Assembly (NCBI RefSeq): GCF_036347055.1 | Contig: NZ_CP108882.1 | Span: 5,002,501 to 5,066,500 of the forward strand | From: Streptomyces sp. NBC_00820 | GTDB taxonomy: Bacteria; Actinomycetota; Actinomycetes; Streptomycetales; Streptomycetaceae | Direction: 5' to 3' | DNA length: 64,000 bases | In this document: positions 27,075 through 59,128 of the stretch, piece by piece | How the letters are laid out: each line of letters opens with the position of its first letter | Numbering within the stretch: the stretch's first letter is position 1 | Program-made: the position numbers and the translations under genes | Notes under the pieces: model-generated | Told to the model about the DNA's origin: nothing | The model's database searches: none | The model's input: only the letters and a program-made list of their open reading frames with translations

Positions 27075-27524
27075 ACCCCCCGGGCCTCCCCCTCCGGTCC
27101 TCCCCCTCCGGGCCTCCCCCTCCGGCCCCCGGGCCGGGCCTGCTCCGACCGGCGCATCCGCGAGTCCGGCGGCGACAGGCGGAAGCGGTCGCCGGGGGCC
27201 GCCGTCGATTTCCAGCCGCCCCGGCCCTCCGGCCGGCGCGCCGCCGAGCGGTGTCGAGAGGCGCCGAGAGGCATGCGGGCAGCGGGAGTCGGCGACCGAC
27301 GCCCCGTAACCTGCCACGTTCCGTGTGCCTTTGCCGCACTTGTCACCCCCGTCCGCCGCGGCCAGCGCGTGAACGGGGTCCGGCGGCGGCACGGTTCGAT
27401 AACGGCCAGCCGAAACCCCGTTCCCCTGCCCTTCTACGCGCGTTACTGTGCGCCGGAATCGCTGCGGTAACGGCGAGTTGGGGATGCGGACCGGTGACGG
27501 TGCCGTGGGGATGGAGGGTTTGCT
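27075..27524. other. 450-base intergenic region upstream of bmpA1
   Basis: No gene is supported here. It begins with three imperfect copies of GGGCCTCCCCCTCCG (about 27082-27130) and GC-rich hairpin-forming sequence. The distal part (about 27300-27480) is the likely promoter region of the BMP lipoprotein gene and holds the palindrome at 27433-27446. Confidence 0.5.
27433..27446. promoter_or_regulatory. Nucleoside-regulon operator, site 1 (bmpA1)
   Basis: TCTACGCGCGTTAC, a near-palindrome matching the consensus TCTACGCGCGTAGA seen at six places. It is 78 bases before the GTG start of the first BMP lipoprotein gene. The sequence is identical to site 2. Confidence 0.75.
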
Positions 27525-28604
27525 GTGCGTCTGATCTCTTCGAGGACGAGTTTGTCCCGGGTCGCGGTGGCCGCGACCGTCGTCGCGCTCGCCGCGACCG
27601 GTTGCGGAGGCTCCAGCAAGGACGCCGCGAAGGACTCCGGCAAGTCCGCCAAGTCCGGGACGTACTCCGGCAAGGGCATCGGCCTCGCGTACGACATCGG
27701 CGGCAAGGGCGACCAGTCCTTCAACGACGCCGCGTACGCCGGTCTCCAGAAGGCCGAGACGGAGTTCAAGATCGGCGCCCGCGACATCGAGCCGCAGGAC
27801 GGCGAGTCCAGCGCCGACAAGGTGCAGCGCCTGGAGCAGCTCGCGCAGGCGGGCTACAACCCGGTCATCGGCGTCGGCTTCGTCTACGCGGACGCGGTCA
27901 AGGACGTCGCCGCGAAGTTCCCGAAGACCACCTTCGGCATCATCGACGACGAGCAGAACAAGGCGCCGAACGTCGCCGACATGGTCTTCCACGAGGAGCA
28001 GGCCTCCTACCTGGCGGGCGTCGCCGCGGCCAAGGCCACCAAGAAGCACCACATCGGCTTCATCGGCGGCGTGAACATCCCGCTGATCCACAAGTTCGAG
28101 GCGGGCTTCGTCCAGGGCGCGCAGTCGATCGACCCGAAGATCAAGATCGAGAAGCAGTACCTGACCCAGACGCCCCAGGAGGGCGGCTTCGCCAGCCCGG
28201 ACAAGGGCAAGGACGCGGCCAGCGGCCAGATCGACGCGGGCGCCGACGTCCTGTACCACGCGGCCGGCCTGTCCGGTCAGGGCGTGATCTCCGAGGCCGC
28301 GTCCAAGAAGGTGTGGGTCATCGGTGTCGACTCCGACCAGTACGCGCAGTCCTCGCTCTCCGCGTACAAGGACTACATCCTGGGCTCGGCGCTGAAGAAC
28401 GTCGGCGGCGCGGTCTACGACCTGGTGAAGTCGGTGTACGAGGGCAAGCCCAAGACCGGTGTGGTGCGCGGCGGCCTGGACAACGACGGCGTCGGCTTCG
28501 CGGACAGCAACCCGAAGTACAAGGCGATGAAGGACGTCGTCGACGCGGTCGACAAGGCCAAGCAGGACATCGTCTCCGGCAAGGTGACCGTCAACATCAA
28601 GTGA
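27525..28604 (+). CDS. bmpA: BMP-family nucleoside-binding lipoprotein 1
   Basis: 359 residues from a GTG with GGAGGG at 27513-27518. The signal peptide ends with the lipobox AATGC. The mature protein is the BMP/PnrA fold: GIGLAYDIGGKGDQSFNDAAYAGLQKAE, VIGVGFVYADAV, GIIDDEQNKAPNVADMVFHEEQASYLAGVAA and HIGFIGGVNIPLIHKFEAGFVQGA. Such proteins bind purine and related nucleosides and feed the ABC importer encoded downstream. It is a tandem paralogue of the next gene. A perfect 22-bp terminator follows, so it is expressed as its own unit. Confidence 0.93.
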   Translation: MRLISSRTSLSRVAVAATVVALAATGCGGSSKDAAKDSGKSAKSGTYSGKGIGLAYDIGGKGDQSFNDAAYAGLQKAETEFKIGARDIEPQDGESSADKVQRLEQLAQAGYNPVIGVGFVYADAVKDVAAKFPKTTFGIIDDEQNKAPNVADMVFHEEQASYLAGVAAAKATKKHHIGFIGGVNIPLIHKFEAGFVQGAQSIDPKIKIEKQYLTQTPQEGGFASPDKGKDAASGQIDAGADVLYHAAGLSGQGVISEAASKKVWVIGVDSDQYAQSSLSAYKDYILGSALKNVGGAVYDLVKSVYEGKPKTGVVRGGLDNDGVGFADSNPKYKAMKDVVDAVDKAKQDIVSGKVTVNIK

Positions 28605-28621
28605 TCTTCTGAGTTCGGCCA

Positions 28622-28668
28622 CACAGAGCCGCGGGGGTGAAGTGCGACTTCACCCCCGCGGCTCTGTG
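28622..28668 (+). terminator. Perfect 22-bp inverted repeat terminator
   Basis: Arms at 28622-28643 and 28647-28668 are exactly complementary around a GCG loop. It follows the first BMP gene stop by 17 bases. It is one of the strongest hairpins in the window and should isolate the two BMP transcripts. Confidence 0.85.
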
Positions 28669-28772
28669 CGGCCGCGAGGAGGGCCGGGAGCGCCTCCCGG
28701 CTCCCCAGCCGCCCCCCGGGGTGTGCGGGCGCCAGGAGCGCAAATTACTGTTGCCATCCGCGGGGCCTCCCT

Positions 28773-28817
28773 CCTGGTGACAAGTCCGCGGCCACCTGGT
28801 GACAAGTCCGCGGCCAC
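28773..28817 (+). repeat. 22-bp direct tandem repeat upstream of bmpA2
   Basis: CCTGGTGACAAGTCCGCGG with its flanking CAC occurs twice in succession with a 22-base period, about 40 bases upstream of the operator palindrome. Two helical turns of spacing would put any bound protein on the same DNA face. It could also be a recent slippage duplication. Confidence 0.7.
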
Positions 28818-28857
28818 AGGTCGATAACGGACCGGACAGATGGGGTTTTCCGGAACG

Positions 28858-28871
28858 TCTACGCGCGTTAC
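28858..28871. promoter_or_regulatory. Nucleoside-regulon operator, site 2 (bmpA2)
   Basis: TCTACGCGCGTTAC, identical to site 1, lying 53 bases before the ATG of the second BMP lipoprotein gene. Confidence 0.75.
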
Positions 28872-28924
28872 GCTGCCGCGGAACCAGCGCCTGGTTGGGC
28901 GCGTGCACAAAGGAGTCCAGTTCC

Positions 28925-29968
28925 ATGCGTCGGGTGTACCGAATAGCGGTTGCGGGCGTTGCGACCGCTACCCTTGCCGTTGCCGTGACCGCCTGTGGCG
29001 GTTCGTCCACCAGCGCCTCCGGCGGTAGCGCGTCCCAGGGCATCGGCCTGGCCTACGACGTCGGCGGCAAGGGCGACCAGTCCTTCAACGACGCCGCGTA
29101 CGCGGGTCTCCAGAAGGCCGACAGCACGTTCAAGTACAAGAGCCGTGACGTCGAGCCGCAGGACGGCGAGTCGGACGCCGACAAGGTGCAGCGTCTGGAG
29201 CAGCTCGCCAAGTCCGGCTACAACCCGGTGATCGGTGTCGGCTTCGTCTACGCGAGTGCCGTCAAGGAGGTCGCGGCGAAGTACCCGAAGATCACCTTCG
29301 GCATCATCGACGACGAGCAGGACAAGGCCGCGAACGTGGCCGACATGGTCTTCCACGAGGAGCAGGCCTCCTACCTGGCGGGCGTCGCCGCGGCCAAGGC
29401 CACGAAGAAGAACCACATCGGCTTCATCGGCGGCGTGGACAACCCCCTCATCCACAAGTTCGAGGCCGGTTACGTCCAGGGCGCGCAGTCGATCAACCCG
29501 AAGATCAAGATCGAGAAGCAGTTCCTGACGCAGACCGCGCAGGAGGGTGGCTTCTCCAGCCCGGACAAGGGCAAGGACGCCGCCGAGGGCCAGATCGACT
29601 CGGGCGCCGACGTGGTCTACGCCGCCGCCGGCCTGTCGGGCCAGGGCGTCATCCAGGCCGCCGCCGCGCACAAGGTGTGGGCCATCGGCGTCGACTCCGA
29701 CCAGTACAAGCAGGCCGCGCTGGCCCAGTACAAGGACTCGATCCTGACCTCGGCCACCAAGGACGTCGCCGGCGCGGTCTTCAACCTCGCCAAGTCGGTG
29801 CACGACAAGAAGCCGGCCACCGGTGTCGTCCGCGCCAGCCTCGCCACCGGCGGTGTCGGCCTCGCCGACTCCAACCCGGCCTTCAAGAACAACGCCGGCA
29901 TCCAGGCCGCGCTGAAGAAGGCCGAGGCGGCCATCAAGGACGGCTCGGTCGTCGTCAAGACCTCCTGA
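28925..29968 (+). CDS. BMP-family nucleoside-binding lipoprotein 2
   Basis: 347 residues from an ATG preceded by AAAGGAG. It has a lipoprotein signal with lipobox VTAC, then the same BMP domain as the upstream paralogue, with very high identity across the ligand-binding core (GIGLAYDVGGKGDQSFNDAA, GFIGGVDNPLIHKFEAGYV, GVGLADSNPAF near the end). Differences concentrate in the linker and C-terminal third, so specificity may differ. It should deliver nucleosides to the ATPase/permease complex encoded after the next terminator. Confidence 0.92.
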   Translation: MRRVYRIAVAGVATATLAVAVTACGGSSTSASGGSASQGIGLAYDVGGKGDQSFNDAAYAGLQKADSTFKYKSRDVEPQDGESDADKVQRLEQLAKSGYNPVIGVGFVYASAVKEVAAKYPKITFGIIDDEQDKAANVADMVFHEEQASYLAGVAAAKATKKNHIGFIGGVDNPLIHKFEAGYVQGAQSINPKIKIEKQFLTQTAQEGGFSSPDKGKDAAEGQIDSGADVVYAAAGLSGQGVIQAAAAHKVWAIGVDSDQYKQAALAQYKDSILTSATKDVAGAVFNLAKSVHDKKPATGVVRASLATGGVGLADSNPAFKNNAGIQAALKKAEAAIKDGSVVVKTS

Positions 29969-30063
29969 CCGAGGTCGGGATTCCGGCCAAGGTCAAGGTG
30001 TCATAACCAGACGTCGAAACCATGGCCAACGGCAGCGCTGCAATGGCAGCGTGAGAGGCCACG

Positions 30064-30102
30064 GAACGGGGTGCGGGGAAGATCGACCCCCGCGCCCCGT
30101 TC
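30064..30102 (+). terminator. Terminator hairpin after bmpA2
   Basis: Arms at 30064-30078 and 30088-30102 (GAACGGGGTGCGGGG against CCCCGCGCCCCGTTC) pair with one G-T wobble around a 9-base loop. It separates the lipoprotein gene from the transporter operon. Confidence 0.7.
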
Positions 30103-30165
30103 GCGCGACACAACGCTCGGCGCAGATCGATCTTGATCCGGCCGGGCATTATTTGAAGCAGGGGC

Positions 30166-30179
30166 GCTACGCGCATAGA
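30166..30179. promoter_or_regulatory. Nucleoside-regulon operator, site 3 (ABC transporter operon)
   Basis: GCTACGCGCATAGA matches the shared palindrome at 12 of 14 positions. It lies 28 bases before the probable translation start at 30208, so a bound repressor would overlap the promoter or leader. Confidence 0.7.
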
Positions 30180-30193
30180 TAGGCCCCTTTTCC

Positions 30194-30210
30194 AAGGAGA
30201 GTGCGCCATC
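30194..30210 (+). promoter_or_regulatory. Ribosome-binding site followed by a non-canonical ATC codon
   Basis: AAGGAG at 30194-30199 is spaced 8 bases from ATC at 30208-30210. That codon opens a frame reading IDASSSPPLTAHPTAVELAG into the ABC ATPase. A normal start would be expected exactly here. The next canonical start (GTG 30253) has no ribosome-binding site. Confidence 0.55.
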
Positions 30211-30252
30211 GACGCGTCCAGTAGCCCTCCGCTCACCGCACACCCGACCGCG

Positions 30253-31824
30253 GTGGAGCTCGCGGGTATCACCAAGCGGTTCCCCGGTGTCGTCGCCAAC
30301 CACGACATCCACCTCACCGTCCGCACCGGCACCGTGCACGCCCTCGTCGGCGAGAACGGCGCCGGCAAGTCCACGCTGATGAAGATCCTCTACGGCATGC
30401 AGAAGCCGGACGAGGGCACGATCACCGTCGCCGGCGAGCAGGTCACCTTCTCGACGCCCGGCGACGCCATCGCGCGCGGCATCGGCATGGTCCACCAGCA
30501 CTTCATGCTCGCCGACAACCTCACGGTCCTGGAGAACGTGGTGCTGGGCAGCGAGAAGCTGCACGGCATCGGTGGCGCGGCCCGCAAGAAGATCCGCGAG
30601 ATATCCGACCGGTACGGGCTGAACGTACGCCCCGACGACCTGGTCGAGAACCTCGGTGTGGCCGAGCGCCAGCGCGTCGAGATCCTCAAGGTCCTCTTCC
30701 GCGGCGCCCGCACCCTCATCCTCGACGAGCCGACCGCCGTGCTCGTGCCGCAGGAGGTCGACGCGCTCTTCGACAACCTGCGCGAGCTGAAGGCCGAGGG
30801 CCTGTCGGTCATCTTCATCTCCCACAAGCTGGGCGAGGTCCTCTCGGTCGCCGACGACATCACCGTCATCCGCCGCGGTACGACGGTCGGTACGGCCGTA
30901 CCCGCCGAGACCACCCCGCGCCAGCTCGCCGAGATGATGGTCGGCAGCGAGCTGCCCACCCCGGAGACCGCCGAGTCCACCGTGACGGACCGGGCCGTGA
31001 TCGAGGTCAGGGACCTGACCGTGTACGCCGGAGGCGCCACGGCCCAGACGGGCGGCGAGGCCAAGCGCGTCCTGGACGACGTCACCTTCACCATCCACGC
31101 CGGCGAGGTCATGGGCATCGCGGGCGTCGAGGGCAACGGCCAGACCGAGCTGATCGATGCGCTGATCGGCCTCAAGCACGCCGACTCCGGCGCCATCCAC
31201 TTCCTGGGCGAGGACATCACCCCCTGGCCCACCCGCAAGCGCCGCGAGCAGGGCGTCGGCTACATCCCCGAGGACCGCCACCGCCAGGGCCTGCTCCTGG
31301 AGGCCCCCCTCTGGGAGAACCGCATCCTCGGCCACGTCACCGAGCAGCCCAACGCCAAGGGCTTCTGGCTGAACCCGAAGGGCGCCCAGGAGGACACCCG
31401 CCGGATCGTCGCCGAGTACGACGTCCGCACCCCCGGCATCGACGTCACCGCCGCCTCCCTGTCCGGCGGCAACCAGCAGAAGCTGATCTTCGGCCGGGAG
31501 ATGAGCCACCACCCGAAGTTCCTGATCGCCGCCCACCCCACCCGCGGTGTGGACGTCGGCGCGCAGGCGCAGATCTGGGACCGCATCCGCGAGGCCCGCC
31601 GCGAGGGCCTGGCCGTGCTGCTGATCTCGGCCGACCTGGACGAGCTGATCGGCCTGTCGGACACCCTGCGCGTGATCTACGACGGCAGGCTGGTCGCCGA
31701 CGCCGATCCCGCCACCATCACCCCGGAGGAGCTCGGGTCGGCCATGACCGGTGCCGCGTCCGGTCACCTGGAGCACGTAGAAGAGAGCGCGGCGCTGGCC
31801 GCCCAGGAGGACGAGGCCCGATGA
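30253..31824 (+). CDS. Nucleoside ABC importer, duplicated ATPase subunit
   Basis: 523 residues from the conventional GTG at 30253; translation more likely begins at an ATC at 30208, adding 15 residues. There are two ABC modules, as in sugar and nucleoside importers of the MglA/NupO type. Module 1 has Walker A GENGAGKST and Walker B TLILDEPTAVL. Module 2 has a degenerate Walker A (GVEGNGQTEL), a clear signature LSGGNQQK and AAHPTRGVDVGAQ. It energises uptake with the two downstream permeases and the BMP lipoproteins. The stop overlaps the next ATG by four bases. Confidence 0.93.
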   Translation: MELAGITKRFPGVVANHDIHLTVRTGTVHALVGENGAGKSTLMKILYGMQKPDEGTITVAGEQVTFSTPGDAIARGIGMVHQHFMLADNLTVLENVVLGSEKLHGIGGAARKKIREISDRYGLNVRPDDLVENLGVAERQRVEILKVLFRGARTLILDEPTAVLVPQEVDALFDNLRELKAEGLSVIFISHKLGEVLSVADDITVIRRGTTVGTAVPAETTPRQLAEMMVGSELPTPETAESTVTDRAVIEVRDLTVYAGGATAQTGGEAKRVLDDVTFTIHAGEVMGIAGVEGNGQTELIDALIGLKHADSGAIHFLGEDITPWPTRKRREQGVGYIPEDRHRQGLLLEAPLWENRILGHVTEQPNAKGFWLNPKGAQEDTRRIVAEYDVRTPGIDVTAASLSGGNQQKLIFGREMSHHPKFLIAAHPTRGVDVGAQAQIWDRIREARREGLAVLLISADLDELIGLSDTLRVIYDGRLVADADPATITPEELGSAMTGAASGHLEHVEESAALAAQEDEAR

Positions 31825-32948
31825 AGAAGTTCGACAAGGAGCGCGTGCTCCTCGCGGTGGCCGGCCCGGTCATCGCGCTCGTCGCGGCGATCGCACTGAC
31901 CTCGGTCGTGCTGCTCGCCTCGGGCAAGAACCCGTTCGAGCCCTACCAGCTGATGCTGCAGCAGGCCGCGTTCTCGGACGTCCAGGTGCTGATCGTCAAC
32001 CAGGCGTCGATGTACTACCTGGCTGCGATCGCCGTCGCCATCGGCTTCCGGATGAACCTGTTCAACATCGGCGTCGACGGCCAGTACCGCCTCGGCGCGA
32101 CGATGGTCGCCGTGGTCGGCGCGCACCTGGCGCTCCCCGCCGTGCTGCAGATCCCCGTACTGCTGCTCGTCGGCGCGCTCACCGGTGCCCTCTGGTCCGG
32201 TGTCGCGGGCGTCCTGAAGGTCACCCGCGGCGTCAGCGAGGTCGTCGCGACGATCATGCTGAACGCGATCGCCGCCAGCCTCATCGGCTACCTGACCGCC
32301 TCCAACGTCTGGGGCGTGCAGGTCGGCAACAACAGCACCACCGGCATCATGAAGAAGTCCGGCTGGGTCCCCGGCATCGACCTGGGCCCGGAGATCGGCG
32401 AGATCTACGGCCTCGTCTTCCTCGCCGTCCTCATGGGCGTCGGCTACTGGATCGTCCTCAACCGCACCCGCTTCGGCTTCGACCTGCGCGCCACCGGCGA
32501 GTCGGAGTCCGCCGCCGCGGCCTCCGGCGTCGACGCCAAGCGCATGGTGCTCACCGCCATGCTGATCTCCGGAGCCATCGCGGGCGTCTCCGGCCTGCCG
32601 CTCCTGCTGGGCGACGCGCACACCTACAGCCTGAGCTTCCCGGCGGGCCTCGGCTACACCGCCATCGGCATCGCCCTGCTCGGCCGCAACAACCCCGGCG
32701 GCATCGCCGTCGCCGCGCTGCTGTGGGCCTTCCTCGACAAGGCGTCTCCGGCCCTCGACTACGCGACCCCGGTGGCGTACGACAAGGAGATCGCCACGAT
32801 CATGCAGGGCCTGATCGTCTTCGCGGTCGTCATCTCGTACGCGGCCGTACGCCAGTGGGGCCTGCGCCGCCAGCAGAAGCGGGTCGGTGCGGAACTCGCC
32901 GCCGAGGCCGCCAACAACGCCACGAAGAAGGAGGTGGCGGCCGCATGA
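31821..32948 (+). CDS. Nucleoside ABC importer permease 1
   Basis: 375 residues with about nine membrane helices of the BPD_transp_2 family (NupP/YufP-like). Typical segments are MYYLAAIAVAIGFRMNLFNIGVDGQYRLGA and the coupling region GESESAAAASGVDAKRMVL. It overlaps the ATPase gene (ATGA) and is followed by a second permease with a four-base overlap, giving a tightly coupled operon. The C-terminus is basic and cytoplasmic. Confidence 0.92.
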   Translation: MKKFDKERVLLAVAGPVIALVAAIALTSVVLLASGKNPFEPYQLMLQQAAFSDVQVLIVNQASMYYLAAIAVAIGFRMNLFNIGVDGQYRLGATMVAVVGAHLALPAVLQIPVLLLVGALTGALWSGVAGVLKVTRGVSEVVATIMLNAIAASLIGYLTASNVWGVQVGNNSTTGIMKKSGWVPGIDLGPEIGEIYGLVFLAVLMGVGYWIVLNRTRFGFDLRATGESESAAAASGVDAKRMVLTAMLISGAIAGVSGLPLLLGDAHTYSLSFPAGLGYTAIGIALLGRNNPGGIAVAALLWAFLDKASPALDYATPVAYDKEIATIMQGLIVFAVVISYAAVRQWGLRRQQKRVGAELAAEAANNATKKEVAAA

Positions 32949-34207
32949 CCACCGCGACCGTCGCGAAGCCGCAGACGCAGGCGCCCGCCAAGGGCGGCCG
33001 CCGTCTCACCCTCCCGGTACTCCTGCTGATCGTCGCGGGCGTGCTGATCCTCACCTCGGCCGTCCGCCTGATCAGCGGTGCCGACGGCATCACCTCGACC
33101 GGCCAGATGTCCACCGCCCTGCGCCTCGCCGTGCCGATCGGCCTCGCGGGCCTCGGCGGCCTGTGGGCCGAGCGGGCCGGCGTCGTCAACATCGGCCTCG
33201 AAGGCATGATGATCCTGGGCACCTGGTTCGGCGCCTGGGCGGGCTACCAGTGGGGCCCGTGGGCCGGTATCGCCTTCGGTATCCTCGGCGGCGTCCTCGG
33301 CGCCGTGCTGCACGCCATCGCCACCGTGACCTTCAACGTCAACCACATCGTCTCCGGTGTGGCCCTCAACATCCTGGCGCTGGGCACCACCCGCTACCTG
33401 TCGAAGTTCACCTTCGCCGACGCCCCGGGGGGCTCCACCAAGCAGTCCCCGCCGATCGACTCGCTGGGCACCTTCGACATCCCGGGCCTGTCGCACTGGC
33501 TGGACACGCTCAACGAGAAGCACTGGTTCCTGGTCTCGGACATCGCCGGCCTGCTCGGCGGCCTGGTCACCGACCTGTCCCCGCTGACCGTGATCGCCGT
33601 GGCCCTCGTCCCCGCCAGCTGGTGGGTGCTGTGGCGCACGGCCTTCGGCCTGCGGCTGCGCTCCTGCGGCGAGAACCCGGTGGCCGCCGAGTCCCTCGGC
33701 GTCAACGTGTACAAGTACAAGTACCTCGCCGTGATCATCTCGGGCGGCTTCGCCGGTCTGGGCGGCGCGTTCCTGTCGATCGTCGCCTCCAACGTGTACC
33801 TCGACGGCCAGACGGCCGGCCGCGGCTACATCGGTCTCGCCGCGATGATCTTCGGCAACTGGATGCCGGGCGGCCTCGCCCTCGGCGCGGGCCTGTTCGG
33901 CTACACCGACAGCCTCAACCTGCGCGGCGGCGGCACCAACGTCCACGCGCTGATCCTGCTCCTCGCGGTCCTGCTGGTGTTCGGCGTGGTCTACCTCGCG
34001 TGGAAGAAGCGCGTGGTCTCCGCGGCGGTCACCGCCGCGGTCGCGGCCCTGATGTTCGTCTGGTACCTGACCACCGACGAGGTCCCGCAGCAGCTCGTGA
34101 GCGCCACGCCGTACATCGTGACGCTGCTCGTCCTGTCGTTCTCCGCGCAGCGGCTGCGGATGCCGAAGGCGGACGGCCTGCCCTACCGGAAGGGACAGGG
34201 CAAGTGA
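32945..34207 (+). CDS. Nucleoside ABC importer permease 2
   Basis: 420 residues from the ATG at 32945. It is also of the BPD_transp_2 family (NupQ/YufQ-like): GLGGLWAERAGVVNIGLEGMMILGTWFGA, VNHIVSGVALNILALGTTRYL, and coupling helix GENPVAAESLGVNVYKYKYL. A C-terminal extra helix pair (AAVTAAVAALMFVWYL, YIVTLLVLSF) is longer than in the Bacillus relative. It forms the membrane channel with permease 1. Its stop overlaps the GTG of the cytidine deaminase gene. Confidence 0.92.
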   Translation: MTTATVAKPQTQAPAKGGRRLTLPVLLLIVAGVLILTSAVRLISGADGITSTGQMSTALRLAVPIGLAGLGGLWAERAGVVNIGLEGMMILGTWFGAWAGYQWGPWAGIAFGILGGVLGAVLHAIATVTFNVNHIVSGVALNILALGTTRYLSKFTFADAPGGSTKQSPPIDSLGTFDIPGLSHWLDTLNEKHWFLVSDIAGLLGGLVTDLSPLTVIAVALVPASWWVLWRTAFGLRLRSCGENPVAAESLGVNVYKYKYLAVIISGGFAGLGGAFLSIVASNVYLDGQTAGRGYIGLAAMIFGNWMPGGLALGAGLFGYTDSLNLRGGGTNVHALILLLAVLLVFGVVYLAWKKRVVSAAVTAAVAALMFVWYLTTDEVPQQLVSATPYIVTLLVLSFSAQRLRMPKADGLPYRKGQGK

Positions 34208-34617
34208 CCGCCTCCGACGCGGGCTGCGCGGCCTTCGACTGGGACGGCCTGCGGGAGATCGCGCGGGACGCCATGTCCCACGCGTACGCCCCCTACTCCG
34301 GCTACCCGGTGGGCGCCGCGGCCCTCGTCGACGACGGCCGGACGGTCTCCGGCTGCAACGTCGAGAACGCCTCCTACGGTCTCGGCCTGTGCGCCGAGTG
34401 CGGTCTGGTCTCCCAGCTGCAGACCACCGGGGGCGGCCGGCTGACGCACTTCACCTGCGTCGACGGCCGGGGTGAGATCCTGGTCCCGTGCGGCCGCTGC
34501 CGCCAGCTGCTGTACGAGTTCGGCGGGCCCGCCCTGCTGCTGGAAACTCCCGAGGGCGTCCTGGCGCTCTCCGAGATGCTGCCCCAGGCCTTCGGGCCCG
34601 AGCATCTCACCAAGTAA
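34204..34617 (+). CDS. cdd: Cytidine deaminase
   Basis: 137 residues from a GTG coupled to the permease stop. Zinc and catalytic residues are Cys63, Glu65, Cys96 and Cys99 (GLCAECG and PCGRCRQ). The substrate-binding NVENASYG is intact, and length matches tetrameric Cdd. It converts (deoxy)cytidine to (deoxy)uridine in the cytoplasm. Co-transcription with the importer means imported cytidine is deaminated at once, feeding the pyrimidine phosphorylase next door. Confidence 0.95.
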   Translation: MTASDAGCAAFDWDGLREIARDAMSHAYAPYSGYPVGAAALVDDGRTVSGCNVENASYGLGLCAECGLVSQLQTTGGGRLTHFTCVDGRGEILVPCGRCRQLLYEFGGPALLLETPEGVLALSEMLPQAFGPEHLTK

Positions 34618-34621
34618 CTCA

Positions 34622-34660
34622 CCGTACGGCCCCCCTGACCCGATCAGGGGGGCCGTACGG
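34622..34660 (+). terminator. Perfect 17-bp inverted repeat between cdd and deoA
   Basis: Arms at 34622-34638 and 34644-34660 pair completely around a 5-base loop. It lies 5 bases after the cdd stop and 26 before deoA. deoA has no operator of its own, so the hairpin may lower rather than abolish read-through. Confidence 0.7.
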
Positions 34661-34685
34661 CTTCGCACAACCCGGAAGGAAAGCC

Positions 34686-35969
<1,284 letters not shown>

Positions 35970-43696: not shown

Positions 43697-43710
43697 TCTA
43701 CGCGCGTAGG
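43697..43710. promoter_or_regulatory. Nucleoside-regulon operator, site 4 (adenosine deaminase)
   Basis: TCTACGCGCGTAGG, 13 of 14 matches to the shared palindrome. It lies only 15 bases before the adenosine deaminase ATG, so binding would block initiation or the leader. Confidence 0.8.
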
Positions 43711-43725: not shown

Positions 43726-44913
43726 ATGACGAGCCAGACCGCACCGACCGGGACCGTCCCGACGAATGCCGCGGCGACCGTTCCCACGCCGGACCAGATC
43801 CGCCGGGCGCCCAAAGTTCTGCTGCACGATCATCTCGACGGCGGGCTGCGCCCCGGTACCGTCGCCGAACTGGCCCGGGAGAGCGGGTACTCGGGGCTTC
43901 CCGAGACCGACCCCGACAAGCTGGGCCTGTGGTTCCAGGAGGCCGCCGACTCCGGTTCGCTGGAACGCTATCTGGAGACCTTCGCGCACACCGTCGCCGT
44001 GATGCAGACCCGCGAGGCGCTGGTGAGGGTCGCCCGCGAGTGTGCCGAGGACCTCGCCGAGGACGGGGTCGTCTACGCCGAGGTGCGGTACGCGCCCGAA
44101 CAGCATCTCGAGGGCGGGCTGAGCCTGGAAGAGGTCGTCGAGGCGGTCAACGAGGGGTTCCGGCAGGGGGAGCGGCTCGCCCGGGAGGGCGGCCGGCGCA
44201 TCCGGGTCGGCGCGCTCCTGACCGCCATGCGGCACGCGGCCCGCTCCCTGGAGATCGCCGAACTCGCCAACCGCCACCGGGACTCGGGTGTCGTCGGCTT
44301 CGACATCGCCGGCGCCGAGGCCGGCCACCCGCCCACCCGGCACCTGGACGCCTTCGAGTACCTCAAGCGGGAGAACAACCACTTCACCATCCACGCCGGC
44401 GAGGCGTTCGGGCTGCCGTCCATCTGGCAGGCGCTCCAGTGGTGCGGCGCCGACCGGCTCGGGCACGGGGTGCGGATCATCGACGACATCGAGGTCGACG
44501 AGGACGGTTCGGTCCGGCTCGGGCGGCTGGCGTCGTACGTCCGGGACAAGCGCATCCCGCTGGAGCTGTGCCCGAGCTCCAATCTGCAGACCGGGGCGGT
44601 GACGTCGTACGCCGGGCATCCGATCGGGCTGCTGCGGCGGCTGCATTTCCGGGTGACGGTCAACACGGACAACAGGCTGATGTCGCACACGAGCATGAGC
44701 CAGGAATTCGAGCATCTCGTCGACGCGTTCGCTTATACGCTCGACGACCTGCAGTGGTTCTCCGTCAATGCGATGAAATCAGCGTTCATTCCTTTCGATG
44801 AACGACTCGCGATGATCAATGACGTCATCAAGCCCGGATATGCCGAGCTGAAATCCGAATGGCTGTTCCGGCAGACCGCCTCCACCAGCGGTTCTTCCGA
44901 AACGGCGGGGTAG
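43726..44913 (+). CDS. add: Adenosine deaminase
   Basis: 395 residues from the ATG at 43726. Catalytic and zinc motifs are complete: HDHLDG (His34, His36), [19 protein letters not shown] and [11 protein letters not shown] with the zinc Asp. It converts (deoxy)adenosine to (deoxy)inosine, the substrate of the purine phosphorylase encoded at 58.3-59.1 kb. It is longer than E. coli Add (333 residues) because of N- and C-terminal extensions. The last 150 bases are less GC-rich. Confidence 0.95.
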
Positions 44914-52054: not shown

Positions 52055-52960
52055 TCAGTACGACGACCCCGACGCGCCCAGCGAACCCGTCGGGTGCCAG
52101 ACCGTCTTGGTCTCCAGGAACGCCGTCATCCGGTCGATCCCGGGAGTCGCGGAGTAATCCACAGCCTGTGGACGCAGGACGCGCTTCAGGTTGTCCGCAG
52201 CCGCGATCTCCAGCTCCTTCGCCAGCACCTCGTCGGCGCCCGCGAGGTCGATCGCGTTGACGTCCTGGTGCGCGGCCAGCGGCGCGGCGATCTCCGCCGT
52301 ACGGCCGGACAGGATGTTGACGACACCGCCCGGGACGTCGGAGGTGGCCAGCACCTCGCCCAGGGACAGGGCGGGCAGCGGGGCCTTCTCGGAAGCGATC
52401 ACGACCGCGGTGTTGCCGGTGGCGATCACCGGGGCGAGCACCGAGACCAGGCCCAGGAACGACGACTCCTGCGGGGCGACGACGGTGACCACACCGGTCG
52501 GCTCCGGGGAGGAGAGGTTGAAGAACGGGCCCGCGACCGGGTTGCCGCCGCCGACCACCTGGGCGATCTTGTCGGTCCAGCCCGCGTACCAGACCCAGCG
52601 GTCGATGGTCGCGTCCACGACCGCGGTCGCCTTCGCCTTCGTCAGGCCCTCGGCCTCGGCGACCTCGCGGACGAACTGCTCCTTGCGGCCCTCCAGCATC
52701 TCCGCGACGCGGTAGAGGATCTGACCGCGGTTGTACGCGGTCGCGCCCGCCCAGCCGCCGAACGCCTTGCGCGCTGCCACGACGGCGTCACGGGCGTCCT
52801 TGCGGGACGAGAGGGGCGCGTTCGCCAGCCAGTTGTTCTTGGAGTCGGTCACCTCGTACACCCGGCCGCTCTCGGAACGCGGGAACTTCCCGCCGACGTA
52901 CAGCTTGTAGGTCTTGAAGACCGACAGCCGGGGCTCGGTCTTTTCGGTCTTCTCAGACAT
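52055..52960 (-). CDS. Truncated aldehyde dehydrogenase-like protein without catalytic half
   Basis: 301 residues from an ATG that overlaps the upstream dehydrogenase by eight bases. It aligns with the N-terminal NAD-binding and oligomerisation region of ALDHs (YKLYVGGKFPRSESGRVYEV, GVVTVVAPQESSFLGLVSVLAPVIATGNTAVV, DVPGGVVNILSGRTAEIAAPLAAHQDVNAIDLAG). It then skips the catalytic domain: neither ELGGK nor the GQxC cysteine is present. Eukaryotic and some bacterial ALDH16 enzymes carry just such a degenerate second ALDH copy fused to an active one. Here the two are separate coupled genes, so it is probably a structural partner. Confidence 0.85.
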   Translation of the reverse strand: MSEKTEKTEPRLSVFKTYKLYVGGKFPRSESGRVYEVTDSKNNWLANAPLSSRKDARDAVVAARKAFGGWAGATAYNRGQILYRVAEMLEGRKEQFVREVAEAEGLTKAKATAVVDATIDRWVWYAGWTDKIAQVVGGGNPVAGPFFNLSSPEPTGVVTVVAPQESSFLGLVSVLAPVIATGNTAVVIASEKAPLPALSLGEVLATSDVPGGVVNILSGRTAEIAAPLAAHQDVNAIDLAGADEVLAKELEIAAADNLKRVLRPQAVDYSATPGIDRMTAFLETKTVWHPTGSLGASGSSY

Positions 52961-54404
52961 CGAGGTACGCCTCCAGGCCGTGGCGACCGCCCTCGCGGCC
53001 GAAGCCCGACTCCTTGTAACCGCCGAACGGCGAGGTCGGGTCGAACTTGTTGAACGTGTTGGACCAGACGACACCGGCGCGCAGCTTGTTGGCGACGGCC
53101 AGGATCCGGGAGCCCTTCTCGGTCCAGATGCCCGCCGAGAGGCCGTACTGCGTGTTGTTCGCCTTGGCGACCGCCTCGTCGGGCGTGCGGAAGGAGAGCA
53201 CCGACAGCACCGGGCCGAAGATCTCGTCACGGGCGATGGTGTGCGCCTGGGTGACGCCGGTGAACAGCGTCGGGGCGAACCAGTAGCCGGAGGAGGGGAG
53301 TTCGCAGGCCGGCGACCAGCGCTCGGCGCCCTCGGCCTCGCCCTTGTCCGCGAGCGCGGTGATCCGGGCCAGCTGCTCGGCGGAGTTGATCGCGCCGATG
53401 TCGGTGTTCTTGTCCAGCGGGTCGCCCAGGCGCAGCGTCGACAGGCGGCGCTTGAGGGAGTCCAGCAGCTCGTCCTGGATCGACTCCTGGACCAGCAGGC
53501 GGGAACCGGCGCAGCAGACCTGGCCCTGGTTGAAGAAGATGCCGGTGACGATGCCCTCGACGGCCTGGTCGATCGGGGCGTCGTCGAAGACGATGTTCGC
53601 GCCCTTGCCGCCCAGTTCGAGGGTGAGCTTCTTGCGCGTGCCGGCGACCGTGCGGGCGATCTCCTTGCCCACGGCGGTGGAGCCGGTGAACGCCACCTTG
53701 TTCACGTCCGGGTGCGCGACCAGCGCGGCACCCGCGTCGCCGTAGCCCGGAAGGATGTTGACGACACCCTTGGGCAGGCCCGCCTGGCGGCAGATGTCGG
53801 CGAAGAAGAGGGCGGAGAGGGGGGTCGTCTCGGCGGGCTTGAGGACGACCGTGTTGCCGGTCGCCAGCGCCGGGGCGATCTTCCACGCCAGCATCAGCAG
53901 CGGGAAGTTCCACGGGATGACCTGGCCGGCCACGCCCAGCGGACGCGGGGCGGCGCCGTAGCCGGCGTGGTCGAGCTTGTCGGCCCAGCCCGCGTAGTAG
54001 AAGAAGTGCGCGGCGACGAGCGGGAGGTCCGCGTCGCGGGTCTCCTTGATCGGCTTGCCGTTGTCCAGCGTCTCCAGGACGGCCAGCTCACGGCTGCGCT
54101 CCTGGATGATGCGGGCGATGCGGAACAGGTACTTGGCGCGCTCGGAGCCGGGCAGCGCCGACCACTTCTCGAACGCCTTGCGGGCGGCCTTGACCGCGCG
54201 GTCGACGTCGGCCTCGCCGGCCTGGGCGATCTCCGACAGCACTTCCTCGGTGCTCGGGGAGACCGTCTTGAAGACCTTGCCGTCGGCCGCCTCGGTGAAC
54301 TCACCGTCGATGAACAGGCCGTAGGAAGGCGCGATGTCGACGACGGAGCGGGACTCGGGCGCCGGCGCGTACTCGAAAAGGGATGACGTGTTGTCCATGT
54401 TCAT
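52953..54404 (-). CDS. NAD(P)-dependent aldehyde dehydrogenase
   Basis: 483 residues. All ALDH landmarks are present: PWNFPLLMLAWKIAPALATGNTVVLKPAE, GSTAVGKEIAR, catalytic Glu in LELGGK, catalytic Cys in FFNQGQVCCAGSR, and EIFGPVLSV. It follows deoC by five bases. The most economical role is oxidation of the acetaldehyde released by deoxyribose-phosphate aldolase. It is coupled to a truncated ALDH-like partner. Confidence 0.92.
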   Translation of the reverse strand: MNMDNTSSLFEYAPAPESRSVVDIAPSYGLFIDGEFTEAADGKVFKTVSPSTEEVLSEIAQAGEADVDRAVKAARKAFEKWSALPGSERAKYLFRIARIIQERSRELAVLETLDNGKPIKETRDADLPLVAAHFFYYAGWADKLDHAGYGAAPRPLGVAGQVIPWNFPLLMLAWKIAPALATGNTVVLKPAETTPLSALFFADICRQAGLPKGVVNILPGYGDAGAALVAHPDVNKVAFTGSTAVGKEIARTVAGTRKKLTLELGGKGANIVFDDAPIDQAVEGIVTGIFFNQGQVCCAGSRLLVQESIQDELLDSLKRRLSTLRLGDPLDKNTDIGAINSAEQLARITALADKGEAEGAERWSPACELPSSGYWFAPTLFTGVTQAHTIARDEIFGPVLSVLSFRTPDEAVAKANNTQYGLSAGIWTEKGSRILAVANKLRAGVVWSNTFNKFDPTSPFGGYKESGFGREGGRHGLEAYLDV

Positions 54405-54409: not shown

Positions 54410-55369
54410 TCAGTCCACCGTCACGTAGTCAGGGCCGGAGTAACGGCCGGTGGCCAGCTTCTGCCGCTGCATCAGCAGGTCGTTGAGGAGCGAGGAGGCG
54501 CCGAAGCGGAACCAGTGGTTGTCCAGCCAGTCCTCGCCCGCGGTCTCGTTGACCAGGACCAGGAACTTGATCGCGTCCTTGGTGGTGCGGATGCCGCCGG
54601 CCGGCTTCACGCCGATCTGGACGCCGGTCTGGGCGCGGAAGTCGCGCACCGCCTCCAGCATCAGCAGGGTGTTGGCGGGCGTGGCGTTGACCGCGACCTT
54701 GCCGGTGGACGTCTTGATGAAGTCGGCCCCGGCCAGCATGCCCAGCCAGCTCGCCCGGCGGATGTTGTCGTACGTCGACAGCTCGCCGGTCTCGAAGATG
54801 ACCTTCAGCCGGGCGCTCGTCCCGCAGGCCTCCTTCACGGCGGTGATCTCGTCGTACACCTTCATGAAGTGGCCGGAGAGGAACGCGCCGCGGTCGATGA
54901 CCATGTCGATCTCGTCGGCACCCGCGGAGACGGCGTCGCGCACGTCGGCCAGCTTGACGTCGAGGGCGGCGCGGCCGGCCGGGAAGGCGGTGGCGACCGA
55001 GGCGACCTTCACGCCGGAGCCGGCGACGGCTTCCTTGGCGGCGGCCACCATGTCGGGGTAGACGCAGACGGCGGCGGTCGTCGGGGTCGTCCGGTCCGTC
55101 GGGTCCGGGTGGACCGCCTTGGCGCCGAGCGCCCGGACCTTGCCCGGGGTGTCCGCGCCTTCCAGCGTCGTCAGGTCGACCATCGAGATGGCGAGGTCGA
55201 TGGCGTACGCCTTCGCGGTGGTCTTGATGGAACGGGTACCAAGAGACGCGGCTCGCGACTCCAGGCCGACCGCGTCGACGCCGGGCAGCCCGTGGAGGAA
55301 GCGGCGCAGCGTGCTGTCGGACCCGGTGACGTCAGCGAGAGCGTGTGCTGTGGGTGCAGAGGTGGGCAT
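54410..55369 (-). CDS. deoC: Deoxyribose-phosphate aldolase
   Basis: 319 residues from the ATG at 55369. The DeoC barrel has the Schiff-base Lys219 in GADFIKTSTGKVAVNAT, the second active-site Lys in VKPAGGIRT, and KVIFETGEL. It cleaves 2-deoxyribose-5-phosphate to glyceraldehyde-3-phosphate and acetaldehyde. It is longer than E. coli DeoC (259), with an N-terminal extension typical of actinobacteria. It is the first gene of an operon with two ALDH genes, and a regulon operator lies 18 bases upstream. Confidence 0.95.
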   Translation of the reverse strand: MPTSAPTAHALADVTGSDSTLRRFLHGLPGVDAVGLESRAASLGTRSIKTTAKAYAIDLAISMVDLTTLEGADTPGKVRALGAKAVHPDPTDRTTPTTAAVCVYPDMVAAAKEAVAGSGVKVASVATAFPAGRAALDVKLADVRDAVSAGADEIDMVIDRGAFLSGHFMKVYDEITAVKEACGTSARLKVIFETGELSTYDNIRRASWLGMLAGADFIKTSTGKVAVNATPANTLLMLEAVRDFRAQTGVQIGVKPAGGIRTTKDAIKFLVLVNETAGEDWLDNHWFRFGASSLLNDLLMQRQKLATGRYSGPDYVTVD

Positions 55370-55387
55370 GGTCACCAGACGAGCATA

Positions 55388-55401
55388 TCTACGCGCGTAG
55401 C
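55388..55401. promoter_or_regulatory. Nucleoside-regulon operator, site 5 (deoC operon)
   Basis: TCTACGCGCGTAGC, 13 of 14 matches to the palindrome, 18 bases upstream of the deoC ATG on the minus strand. Confidence 0.8.
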
Positions 55402-56258: not shown

Positions 56259-56301
56259 GCCCGGATGGCGGCCGGCCGCGCCCGGACCGCCGCTACGACG
56301 A

Positions 56302-56339
56302 CGAAACGGGGTGCCCCCGGCAGGGGGCACCCCGTTTCG
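56302..56339. terminator. Bidirectional terminator between convergent genes
   Basis: Perfect 17-bp arms at 56302-56318 and 56323-56339 around a GGCA loop, with AAA/TTT inside the stem. It is placed between the stops of the PH-domain gene and the phosphomutase gene. Confidence 0.85.
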
Positions 56340-56352
56340 CGTCCGTGCGGGT

Positions 56353-57999
56353 TCAGATGCCGGCCGCCGCCGACAGGTCACGCTTGACGCCCGCGAGCAG
56401 CTCGGCCGCGCGGGCGCGCGCGGCCGGCAGGCCGGCGTGCGTCGCGACCGGTACGACGACCTCCAGGTAGCACTTCAGCTTGGGCTCGGTGCCGCTGGGG
56501 CGCACGATGACGCGGGCGCCGTCGAGGGTGTAGCGCAGCCCGTCCGTGGGCGGGAGCCGGTCCGTGCCCAGGGTGAGGTCCTCGGCCCGGGTGATGGCGA
56601 GGCCCGCCAGCTCGGTCGGCGGCCGCTCGCGCAGGCGGCGCATCGCGTCGGAGATGACGGAGAGGTCCTCGACGCGCACCGAGAGCTGGTCGGTGGCGTG
56701 CAGCCCGTGTTCCACGGCCAGGTCGTCGAGGAGGTCGAGCAGCGTGCGGCCCTCCTCCTTGAGGACCGAGGCCAGTTCGGTGATCAGGAGCGCGGCGGTG
56801 ATGCCGTCCTTGTCACGCACGCCGTCCGGGTCGACGCAGTAGCCGAGGGCCTCCTCGTAGCCGAAGCGCAGGCCCTCGACGCGGGCGATCCACTTGAAGC
56901 CGGTCAGCGTCTCCTCGTACGGCTGGCCCGCCTTCGCGGCGATCCGGCCGAGCAGGGAGGAGGAGACGATCGACTCCGCGAAGGTGCCGGTGGCCCCGCG
57001 CCGGACCAGGTGGGCGGCGAGCAGCGCGCCGACCTCGTCGCCGCGCAGCATGCGCCAGTCCCCGCCGTCCTTGACGGCCACCGCGCAGCGGTCCGCGTCG
57101 GGGTCGTTGGCGATGACGAGGTCCGGGTCGCTCGCGCGGGCCCGGGCGAACGCCAGGTCCATCGCGCCCGGCTCCTCCGGGTTGGGGAAGGCGACCGTCG
57201 GGAAGTCCGGGTCCGGCTCGGCCTGTTCGGCGACCAGGACCGGCTCGGGGAAGCCGGCGCGGGCGAACGCGGCGAGCAGGACGTCCTTGCCGACGCCGTG
57301 CATCGCCGTGTAGACCGTGCGGGCCGTGCGCGGGGAGCCCGCGTCCAGTACGGCGTCCGTACGGGCCAGGTAGGCGTCCAGGACCGCGTCGTCGAGGATC
57401 TCCCAGCCCGCGTCCGGGCGCGGTACGTCGTGCAGCGAGGCGATCGCGTCGATCTCGGCGGCGATCTCCGCGTCGGCGGGCGGCACGATCTGGGAGCCGT
57501 CGCCGAGGTAGACCTTGTAGCCGTTGTCCCGGGGCGGGTTGTGGCTGGCCGTGACCTCCACGCCCGCGACCGCGCCCAGGTGCCGTATGGCGAAGGCCAG
57601 GACGGGGGTGGGCAGGGGGCGCGGCAGCACGACGGCACGCAGGCCGGCGCCGGTCATCACGGCGGCGGTGTCCCGGGCGAAGTCGGCGGACTTGTGGCGG
57701 GCGTCGTAGCCGATGGCGACGATACCGGCGTCGTCGCCCCCGTGGGGGGTGCCGTTCTTCTTCAGGTACGCGGCGAGGCCCGCGGCGGCGCGGATGACGA
57801 CGGAGCGGTTCATGCGCATCGGTCCGGCGCCGAGTTCGCCCCGCAGACCGGCGGTGCCGAACTGGAGGGTGCCGCCGAAGCGGGCGGAGAGCTCCGCGAC
57901 GTCGCCGGCCTCGATCAGCTTGGCCAGTTCGTCACGGGTCTCCTGGTCCGGGTCCTCCGCGAGCCACGCGTCGGCCTCGGCGATGAGATCGTCGTACAC
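56353..57999 (-). CDS. Phosphoglucomutase/phosphomannomutase-family phosphohexo(pento)mutase
   Basis: 548 residues from a GTG at 57999, behind AGGAGAGG. It has the active-site phosphoserine loop TASHNPPRDNGYKVY, the metal site DPDADR, the sugar-binding GYEEALGY and the C-terminal phosphate loop RPSGTEPKLKCY. The group includes enzymes acting on ribose-1-phosphate/deoxyribose-1-phosphate. Its position just downstream of purine nucleoside phosphorylase suggests it makes (deoxy)ribose-5-phosphate for DeoC. That preference is inferred from context. Confidence 0.9.
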   Translation of the reverse strand: MYDDLIAEADAWLAEDPDQETRDELAKLIEAGDVAELSARFGGTLQFGTAGLRGELGAGPMRMNRSVVIRAAAGLAAYLKKNGTPHGGDDAGIVAIGYDARHKSADFARDTAAVMTGAGLRAVVLPRPLPTPVLAFAIRHLGAVAGVEVTASHNPPRDNGYKVYLGDGSQIVPPADAEIAAEIDAIASLHDVPRPDAGWEILDDAVLDAYLARTDAVLDAGSPRTARTVYTAMHGVGKDVLLAAFARAGFPEPVLVAEQAEPDPDFPTVAFPNPEEPGAMDLAFARARASDPDLVIANDPDADRCAVAVKDGGDWRMLRGDEVGALLAAHLVRRGATGTFAESIVSSSLLGRIAAKAGQPYEETLTGFKWIARVEGLRFGYEEALGYCVDPDGVRDKDGITAALLITELASVLKEEGRTLLDLLDDLAVEHGLHATDQLSVRVEDLSVISDAMRRLRERPPTELAGLAITRAEDLTLGTDRLPPTDGLRYTLDGARVIVRPSGTEPKLKCYLEVVVPVATHAGLPAARARAAELLAGVKRDLSAAAGI

Positions 58000-58035
58000 C
58001 TTGGGATCAACCTCTCCTGTGTCTGCCTGGTCCCG

Positions 58036-58054
58036 CTGGGGGCTCCGCCCCCAG
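58036..58054 (-). promoter_or_regulatory. Hairpin between purine phosphorylase and phosphomutase genes
   Basis: CTGGGGGC-TCC-GCCCCCAG forms an 8-bp stem 37 bases upstream of the phosphomutase start, in the middle of a presumed two-gene operon. It may attenuate or process the transcript. A 19-bp direct repeat follows nearby at 58189-58226. Confidence 0.4.
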
Positions 58055-58188
58055 GTCCCCGTTTTCCCGCCCGTCCGGCCGGGAACCGGACGGCCGGCCC
58101 GGCGCCCACGTGCCGACACCGCCCGCCCGCGGCCGTGTGCGGGGCCGCCAAGGCGTCTGAGCCTCACGCCGGGCGGTCCCGCGTCCGC

Positions 58189-58226
58189 GTCGTACCGGGC
58201 GGGTCGTGTCGTACCGGGCGGGTCGT
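58189..58226. repeat. 19-bp tandem direct repeat
   Basis: GTCGTACCGGGCGGGTCGT occurs twice in succession (58189-58207 and 58208-58226) in the 266-base gap between the phosphorylase and phosphomutase genes. Confidence 0.75.
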
Positions 58227-58265
58227 GTCGCGTCGCGGCGCGGCACGTTCTCGTCCGGGAGTCGC

Positions 58266-59090
58266 TTACAGCCGGCCCAGTACCTGGGTCAGCAGCTGGC
58301 CCATGCGGGCTGCCGAGTCGCGGCCCGCCTGCAGGACCTCCTCGTGGTTGAGGGGCTCGCCCGTCATGCCCGCGGCGAGGTTGGTGACCAGGGAGATGCC
58401 CAGCACCTCGGCGCCCGCCTCACGCGCGGCGATGGCCTCGAGGACCGTGGACATGCCGACGAGGTCCGCGCCGATGACGCGGGCCATGCGGATCTCGGCC
58501 GGGGTCTCGTAGTGCGGGCCGGGGAACTGCGCGTAGACGCCCTCCTCCAGGGAGGGGTCGATCTCCTTGCACAGGGCGCGCAGCCGCGGGGAGTACAGGT
58601 CCGTCAGGTCGACGAAGTTGGCGCCGACGATCGGGGAGGTGGCCGTCAGGTTCAGGTGATCGCTGATCAGCACCGGCTGGCCGGGGCGCATGCCCTCGCG
58701 CAGACCGCCGCAGCCGTTGGTGAGCACGATGGTCTTGCAGCCGGCGGCGACGGCCGTACGGACGCCGTGCGCGACGGCGGCCACCCCGCGGCCCTCGTAG
58801 TAGTGCGTGCGGCCGAGGAAGACCAGCGCGCGCTTGTCACCGAAGGAGTACGAGCGGATCTTTCCGCCGTGCCCCTCGACCGCCGGCGGCGGGAAGCCGG
58901 GCAGCTCGGTGACCTGGAACTCGGCGTCGGGCGCGCCCAGGGCGTCGACGGCCGGAGCCCAGCCGGAGCCCATCACGAGGGCGACGTCGTGGGTCTCGGC
59001 GCCCGTGAGCTCGCGCAGGCGCGCGGCGGCGGCGTCGGCGGCCGCATAGGGGTCGCCCTGGATGTCGTCCGGAAGGAGAGATGCGTTCAC
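58266..59090 (-). CDS. punA: Purine nucleoside phosphorylase (trimeric type)
   Basis: 274 residues from a GTG at 59090. The trimeric PNP/MTAP signature is clear: [12 protein letters not shown], the substrate segment [53 protein letters not shown], and [15 protein letters not shown]. It phosphorolyses (deoxy)inosine and (deoxy)guanosine, taking the product of adenosine deaminase. The downstream phosphomutase then acts on the sugar phosphate. A regulon operator lies 24 bases upstream. Confidence 0.95.
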
Positions 59091-59114
59091 GTCGACGAGG
59101 GTAGCCGGTCTTCG

Positions 59115-59128
59115 CCTACGCGCGTAGA
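59115..59128. promoter_or_regulatory. Nucleoside-regulon operator, site 6 (purine phosphorylase operon)
   Basis: CCTACGCGCGTAGA, 13 of 14 matches to the palindrome, 24 bases upstream of the phosphorylase start on the minus strand. Confidence 0.8.

Follow-up and report, generated by a model that had tools for sequence, protein, structure and literature searches.

A predicted operator shared by nucleoside and purine genes of Streptomyces and its candidate orphan LacI-family repressor

Nucleoside genes of the window and their predicted operator sites

The window, a 64,000-nucleotide stretch of the Streptomyces sp. NBC_00820 genome (G000, 8,106,388 bases in one contig; C1:5002501-5066500), contains a series of nucleoside import and catabolism genes preceded by six similar palindromic sites, which very probably serve as operators of a LacI-family repressor, here termed P0001, that is encoded by an orphan gene and governs the acquisition of nucleosides and purines. 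The sites begin at window positions 27433, 28858, 30166, 43697, 55388 and 59115; all six had been proposed in the original prediction, and each was confirmed in the sequence and recovered by a mismatch scan. Its description of the downstream genes was likewise borne out by Pfam searches of 19 open reading frames (ORFs) of the window. The first two sites (27433..27446 and 28858..28871, both on the + strand) are identical copies of the asymmetric variant TCTACGCGCGTTAC and precede, respectively, bmp1 (27525..28604, +; Bmp, 4e-58), which encodes a PnrA-like nucleoside-type binding lipoprotein, and bmp2 (28925..29968, +; Bmp, 1.6e-53), which encodes a second PnrA-like binding lipoprotein. The third site, GCTACGCGCATAGA (30166..30179, +), lies before an operon for an ABC importer that comprises an ATPase gene (30208..31824, +; ABC_tran; probable ATC start at 30208 from the start context, first in-frame GTG at 30253) and a permease gene (31821..32948, +; BPD_transp_2); the relative G009 has GCTACGCGCGTAGA at the equivalent place. 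The adenosine deaminase gene add (43726..44913, +; A_deaminase, 6.9e-105) is preceded by TCTACGCGCGTAGG (43697..43710, +). The remaining two sites, both with the exact 12-mer core, are read on the - strand: GCTACGCGCGTAGA (55388..55401, -) precedes the deoxyribose-phosphate aldolase gene deoC (54410..55375, -; DeoC, 7.3e-24; start GTG at 55375 or ATG at 55369) and the downstream aldehyde dehydrogenase gene aldh (52953..54404, -; Aldedh), and TCTACGCGCGTAGG (59115..59128, -) precedes the purine nucleoside phosphorylase gene punA (58266..59090, -; PNP_UDP_1, 9.7e-43; GTG start) and a downstream phosphomutase gene (ORF extent 56353..58167, -; PGM_PMM I-IV).

Counted as mismatches from TCTACGCGCGTAGA, the sites at 43697, 55388 and 59115 depart from the palindrome at one position each, the site at 30166 at two, and those at 27433 and 28858 at three each. 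The sole further window match at up to three mismatches is TCGACGGGCGTCGA at 14934, so that the window holds seven matches vs 2.71 +/- 1.46 in shuffled sequence, and none of 100 shuffles reached seven. Boxes recognized by eye as TACAGT, TATGCT or TACCCT lie downstream of the site and 6-7 bp ahead of the start codon at add, deoC and punA; at add, TACAGT stands 6 bp ahead of the ATG, which is a leaderless-type arrangement.

After the ABC importer genes the window also encodes a pyrimidine nucleoside phosphorylase (ORF extent 34488..35969, +; PYNP_C and Glycos_transf_3), ahead of which a cytidine deaminase domain (dCMP_cyt_deam_1) falls within the ORF at 32887-34617. The apparent ATC start of the ABC importer ATPase (GGAGAGTGCGCCATC, window 30194-30253) has a Shine-Dalgarno sequence 8 nt off, and among 18 loci scanned ATC (once ATT) occupies the equivalent position in 12 of the 13 that have the ATPase gene (the exception is L272; the window's own locus is L277); it is a candidate conserved non-AUG start.

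Conservation of the sites and the wider set of predicted target genes

The exact 12-mer core, CTACGCGCGTAG, occurs in three copies in the whole genome, all of them within the window (one copy for the reversed control), and the 14-mer at up to two mismatches has 24 genome-wide matches vs two for the pattern reversed; a whole-genome scan found no perfect 14-mer in G000. The exact core is present in 120 of 121 Streptomycetaceae genomes at one to six copies each (control, 0-3), and the 14-mer with at most one mismatch occurs 5-13 times in every one of 25 genus members (control, 0-2) but is absent from the 16 genomes that belong to other families.

Sites of G000 outside the window precede the genes of an NCS2 purine permease (Xan_ur_permease), purSQL (identified by reading the sequence), a CN-hydrolase (a TIGR03381 match that stays under the cut-off), a permease of the OppC type and a secreted-looking protein of the exo/endonuclease-phosphatase family; a further site falls just past the start of the gene for a secreted-looking GmrSD_C protein. 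Matching sites were found at the same gene types in the relatives G013, G009, G007, G018 and G022, and a second adenosine-deaminase-type gene of G007 (L075) has a site as well. These loci of the relatives, which include the CN-hydrolase, oligopeptide ABC transporter, secreted nuclease and second add loci, form a motif-seeded sample, fetched because of the site.

Of the remaining genomic matches, those at L049, L050, L051, L052, L055, L059, L060, L174 and L177 are intragenic or near unrelated genes and were set aside as chance matches. Five further matches, classed neither as chance nor as members, lie at genes for a lipase (L043), an M23 peptidase (L047), lysozyme- and MarR-type proteins (L056), a DUF3103 protein (L176) and an enoyl-CoA-hydratase-type protein (L178). 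The gene context of the 12-mer matches at up to one mismatch was read for all but those at 5273782 and 5403019. In four genomes, TCTACGCGCGT[CG]GA lies 9 bp past the start of a gene for a secreted-looking protein (L044:2500, L061:2001, L066:2001, L074:2001); the L044 product has a GmrSD_C domain, and the site there may reflect either a coding constraint or an operator just beyond the start.

Conservation was assessed blind to the motif: a protein search of 20 genomes from 17 genera supplied the orthologs, whose upstream DNA was scored regardless of the motif, with about 0.6-1.9% of shuffled upstream trials reaching three mismatches or fewer. Loci shortened by contig ends (L280, L315 and L335) were scored in register; L280 has the site and L315 lacks it. 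The site stands at two mismatches or fewer before 19 of 19 best add matches (in G056, TCTACGCGCGTAGG lies 239 bp upstream of the protein match) and before neither of two add paralogs. All 17 Bmp loci, found in 16 genomes that represent 14 genera, have TCTACGCGCGTTA[AC] (4 of the 20 genomes gave no Bmp match); since this form precedes Bmp genes throughout, the asymmetric and seemingly defective sites at 27433 and 28858 are genuine. For the NCS2 permease, the best match in a genome carries the site at one mismatch in 14 of 17 cases, compared with none of the 13 scored paralogs (18 paralog matches, 13 with loci); the best match without a site in G083, G041 and G044 may itself be a paralog. Before purSQL the site is found at two mismatches or fewer in 13 of 20 genomes and at three or fewer in 15. 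Altogether, none of the 15 scored add and NCS2 paralogs carries it. Among the nucleoside genes this comparison covered add and Bmp; both have the site before orthologs, and the add paralogs lack it. Each promoter moreover keeps its own departure from the palindrome across genera (add ..TAGG, permease ..[GAC]AGA, Bmp ..TTA[AC]).

The original prediction had named absence of the site before orthologs in related species as evidence against itself; a check for this at four targets (add, Bmp, the permease and purSQL) left it standing. Its proposal of one operator for a nucleoside-salvage regulon is supported, and the operator is conserved across the family; its limits do not stand, as the predicted regulon exceeds both the nucleoside genes and the 32 kb and includes the NCS2 permease and purSQL. 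The view that the palindromes arose by chance, or are common to promoters of high-GC Streptomyces in general, would agree with the counts of the 12-mer with at most one mismatch, which is scarcely enriched genome-wide (27 matches vs 22 for the control). Single sites of this kind were therefore dropped as evidence, and lone imperfect sites need conservation to count. The excess of the 14-mer, the exact core in 120 of 121 family genomes and the difference between orthologs and paralogs of add and NCS2 all contradict this explanation, which we regard as having practically no chance of being correct; for the add and Bmp sites it is refuted by the ortholog tests.

An orphan LacI-family protein as candidate regulator

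The original prediction had pointed to a resemblance of the sites to LacI-type operators and left the regulator unassigned. The comparative evidence supports the resemblance and, on the second point, leads to one orphan LacI-family protein. A PF00356 search of G000 gave 17 LacI genes, and among their 3.1 kb loci a single one has a site at up to three mismatches, namely L092 (G000:C1:3909223-3910245), about 1.1 Mb from the window, with TCCATCCGCGTAGA beginning 22 bp ahead of its GTG. Its product P0001, of 341 aa, contains the LacI-type helix-turn-helix (PF00356, 56.5 bits vs a cut-off of 27). An ortholog of L092, no less than 66% identical, is present in 61 of 61 Streptomycetaceae genomes drawn. 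Of 148 genomes sampled across the class, the 11 from the genus all have the gene, and 8 of the 137 others have a relative at E 1e-60 with 42-46% identity. The operator and L092 thus appear to share a like taxonomic range. The half-site CGCGTAGACT, merged with the -10 box, is present in 38 of 49 L092-ortholog promoters read (50 loci, with L140 unread; L149 is a second copy, not an ortholog), and 37 of 41 orthologs from named contigs score at least 10 of 12 positions, compared with 30 of 1520 shuffled promoters.

The protein profile can be aligned to CcpA, RbsR and PurR. The AlphaFold model of the close ortholog L213 (mean pLDDT 87.2) has a full-length LacI fold with the PBP-like sensor domain at the C-terminus, and a Foldseek search with it placed DNA-bound CcpA, RbsR and PurR on top, with a TM of about 0.8. 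Relatives of P0001 share the recognition helix ..SxAVVSYVxN..G, in which the clade has Tyr vs His in PurR and RbsR and Arg in CcpA, followed by one additional residue; this atypical helix fits an operator that departs from the usual LacI half-sites. At the pocket position before LAGF, the 14 orphan-clade rows of the alignment and P0001 have His, where the remaining 32 rows have Arg. In the phylogenetic tree the 15 orphan-protein rows form one group (support 95/93); the label used for these rows also caught L163 and L216, which have DHV or DHI at another place in the sequence and are not counted in the group. The enterobacterial proteins fall inside the actinobacterial sequences, next to Kibdelosporangium (99/94). 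A row labelled Saccharothrix sp. ST-888 is placed among the Streptomycetaceae.

Operators of a matching form accompany many of these same-helix relatives. Their neighbours in L160-L164 and L167-L169 are, as read from the sequences, ribose-uptake-type genes, ribokinase, RbsD-like genes or nucleoside hydrolases. In a scan of genome contigs, from which the best 80 of 545 loci, all with names, were kept, the helix was read in 76 (L188, L194, L211 and L249 gave none), and 50 of these 76 promoters score at least 10 of 12 positions against TCWACNCGNGTWGA vs 30 of 1520 shuffles. All 13 enterobacterial loci have a site, located 1.5-1.9 kb upstream of lacI and not beside it; twelve read TCTACGCG[CGA]GTAGA, one is a base off, and the perfect 14-mer occurs in 7 of the 13. 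The 16 loci scanned for the motif gave 16 matches, compared with two for the reversed motif and 0-4 for 60 permuted palindromes. In Yersinia aldovae, the one annotated locus of the 13, the site heads an operon of an MFS transporter gene (Sugar_tr), lacI and a nucleoside hydrolase gene (IU_nuc_hydro). The Kibdelosporangium lacI promoter has exactly TCTACGCGCGTAGA, and apart from it and the seven enterobacterial loci none of the fetched loci contains the perfect 14-mer.

A second helix and operator scan covered 92 loci; L166, which lies near adenosine deaminase, and L194, L211 and L249 from Chloroflexota gave no VVSY helix and count neither way, and three loci are repeats (L181 of L161, L184 of L167, and L197 of the genome of L145). 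Where residue X of the S-X-[AS]VVSY helix is P or E, the half-sites are of the [TG]CAAC type (with one TCACC among the 13 of 17 loci that have a site, repeats included); where it is A, V, S, T or M, TCTAC or TCTAT is found on at least one side. We infer that the helix reads the varying base of the half-site.

P0001 resembles four described LacI-family regulators, whose model cut-offs it does not reach. RbsR is its best NCBIfam match by E-value (1.9e-53), the DNA-bound RbsR structure 9ny8 is the second Foldseek match, and relatives of P0001 reside in rbs-type operons. However, the score of 181.9 bits is far under the equivalog cut-off of NF047341 (382), and P0001 differs in being encoded by an orphan gene with scattered targets, in its recognition helix and in the His that replaces the pocket Arg. 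Escherichia coli PurR shares the fold (1qpz, fifth Foldseek match), a palindrome with central CG and a regulon that joins purine synthesis with a purine permease. In contrast, P0001 scores 169 bits against NF007979 (cut-off 501), its clade has TAVVSY where PurR has TTTVSH (T replaced by V, and H by Y), and its predicted regulon adds nucleoside catabolism and Bmp import; the PurR operator, ACGCAAACGTTTGCGT, is different from the window sites. CytR of E. coli, which acts together with CRP, and UriR of Corynebacterium are LacI-family regulators that target nucleoside uptake and catabolism genes, as here, and P0001 falls under the cut-offs of both models (161.3 bits vs 436 for NF008269, and 115.5 vs 550 for NF051853).

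The DeoR-family regulator encoded near punA (61367..62314, +; DeoRC and HTH_DeoR) is close to the cluster, is the sole sugar-phosphate-type regulator among the searched ORFs, and could be thought to bind the sites, the more so as E. coli DeoR controls deoC-deoA-deoB-deoD and both target sets include deoC and purine nucleoside phosphorylase. Its own promoter, as previously noted, lacks the site (best match, six mismatches), and it was rejected as regulator on this ground. Its top NCBIfam match, AgaR, is under the cut-off, and the DeoR model gives 74.8 vs a cut-off of 244. E. coli DeoR belongs to a different protein family from LacI and has another half-site order, TGTTAGAATTCTAACA. A DeoR-family regulator would moreover leave the match between operator and LacI helix across phyla unexplained, and we consider this assignment highly improbable.

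A GntR, TetR or MarR regulator that binds the sites, with an indirect LacI association, is scarcely more probable. A candidate of this kind is encoded at L056 (G000:C1:5439375), where GCTACGCACGTAGA lies 94 bp ahead of a MarR-type regulator gene (the type read from the sequence). That site has two mismatches and is also 25 bp ahead of the secreted lysozyme-type gene on its other side, and a non-LacI regulator fails to explain the matching site in enterobacterial lacI loci.

The assignment to P0001 is favoured because its gene has a promoter site, is present in 61 of 61 genomes and has same-helix relatives with a matching operator form. Several observations weigh against it. The autoregulatory element comprises one half-site, which falls on a -10 box of the TAGACT type and is missing from the promoters of L142-L147, with the CGCG part lost too; autoregulation alone is weak evidence. 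The add operator is retained in all four genomes tested among these six. The genome-wide promoter scan covered, among the regulator families, LacI genes alone. The site lies within 300 bp of the regulator's own gene in 4 of 12 non-orphan relatives with T in the helix and in 13 of 17 relatives with P or E. The purSQL site is missing at three mismatches or fewer in 5 of 20 genomes (G041, G044, G048, G049 and G057), and a regulon that unites purSQL with nucleoside catabolism fits poorly with simple inducer logic. Finally, some Streptomycetaceae have a second same-helix protein (L170, L201, L233 and L234), which could share the sites and whose own gene has no operator within 300 bp. The L170 protein (G092) is 63% identical to P0001; L170, L201 and L233 have the pocket Arg, and L170 adjoins a secreted exo/endonuclease-like gene.

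Predicted regulatory mechanism and its evolution

The comparative evidence comprises the positions of the sites, their genome-wide excess, their conservation before orthologs, the ubiquity of the LacI gene in the family genomes drawn and the matching operator beside same-helix relatives; from it we infer that P0001 binds DNA, acts as a repressor and responds to a ligand in one direction or the other. The target promoters carry palindromic sites with central CG, as expected for the LacI family, and a P0001 dimer would bind them as TCTACGC|GCGTAGA. At add, deoC and punA the operators lie just upstream of the -10-like box of leaderless-looking promoters, where the repressor would cover promoter DNA, and binding should therefore block RNA polymerase until a change in ligand frees P0001 from the operator. 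The predicted targets in Streptomycetaceae are nucleoside import (Bmp and ABC) and catabolism (add, punA and deoC), nucleobase uptake (NCS2 permease), de novo purine synthesis (purSQL) and, probably, some secreted nuclease-type enzymes. Weak self-control may be exerted through the half-site that overlaps the -10 box of L092. The promoter-specific departures from the palindrome could set the order of derepression.

With respect to the ligand, an inducer such as ribose, a nucleoside or its product is favoured by the operon-linked relatives, and a PurR-like co-repressor by the membership of purSQL and the permease; the balance seems to lean somewhat toward the inducer. In the PurR-like variant, which is compatible with regulation by P0001, a purine would act as co-repressor, and purine shortage would derepress uptake, salvage and purSQL together. 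It accords with the conserved purSQL and purine permease members and with the closeness of the fold model to the PurR-hypoxanthine-DNA complex (1qpz). The orphan-clade His takes the position of the Arg in the PurR RLAGF segment, an Arg kept in all 32 other aligned proteins, so ligand specificity may have changed. PurR itself keeps this Arg, so that the PurR-like pocket is not retained there; furthermore, the relatives are local regulators by ribose and nucleoside-hydrolase genes, which suggests an inducer, and deoC-aldh and the CN-hydrolase are catabolic. We regard PurR-like control as a plausible but lesser possibility.

Tentatively, and at somewhat below even confidence, we propose that P0001 belongs to an ancient LacI subfamily, marked by the helix S-X-AVVSYVxN plus one extra residue, whose operator, TCTACGCGCGTAGA, may have stayed nearly the same in Actinomycetota and Enterobacterales alike. 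In most bacteria its members would control a single operon next to their own gene, for ribose or a nucleoside hydrolase; in Streptomycetaceae the operon would have been lost and the pocket Arg replaced by His, and the protein would have come to repress the scavenging of nucleic acids and the supply of purines throughout the genome. Operator imperfection may here be selected for graded derepression, because G000 is without a perfect 14-mer and 7 of 13 enterobacterial loci have one.

Nucleotide pools of Streptomyces bear on development and antibiotic making. P0001 thus offers a specific candidate regulator for nucleoside and purine supply in this genus, and the S-X-AVVSY helix with its TCTACGC or TCAAC half-sites constitutes a putative protein-DNA recognition pair that has apparently been retained over two phyla.

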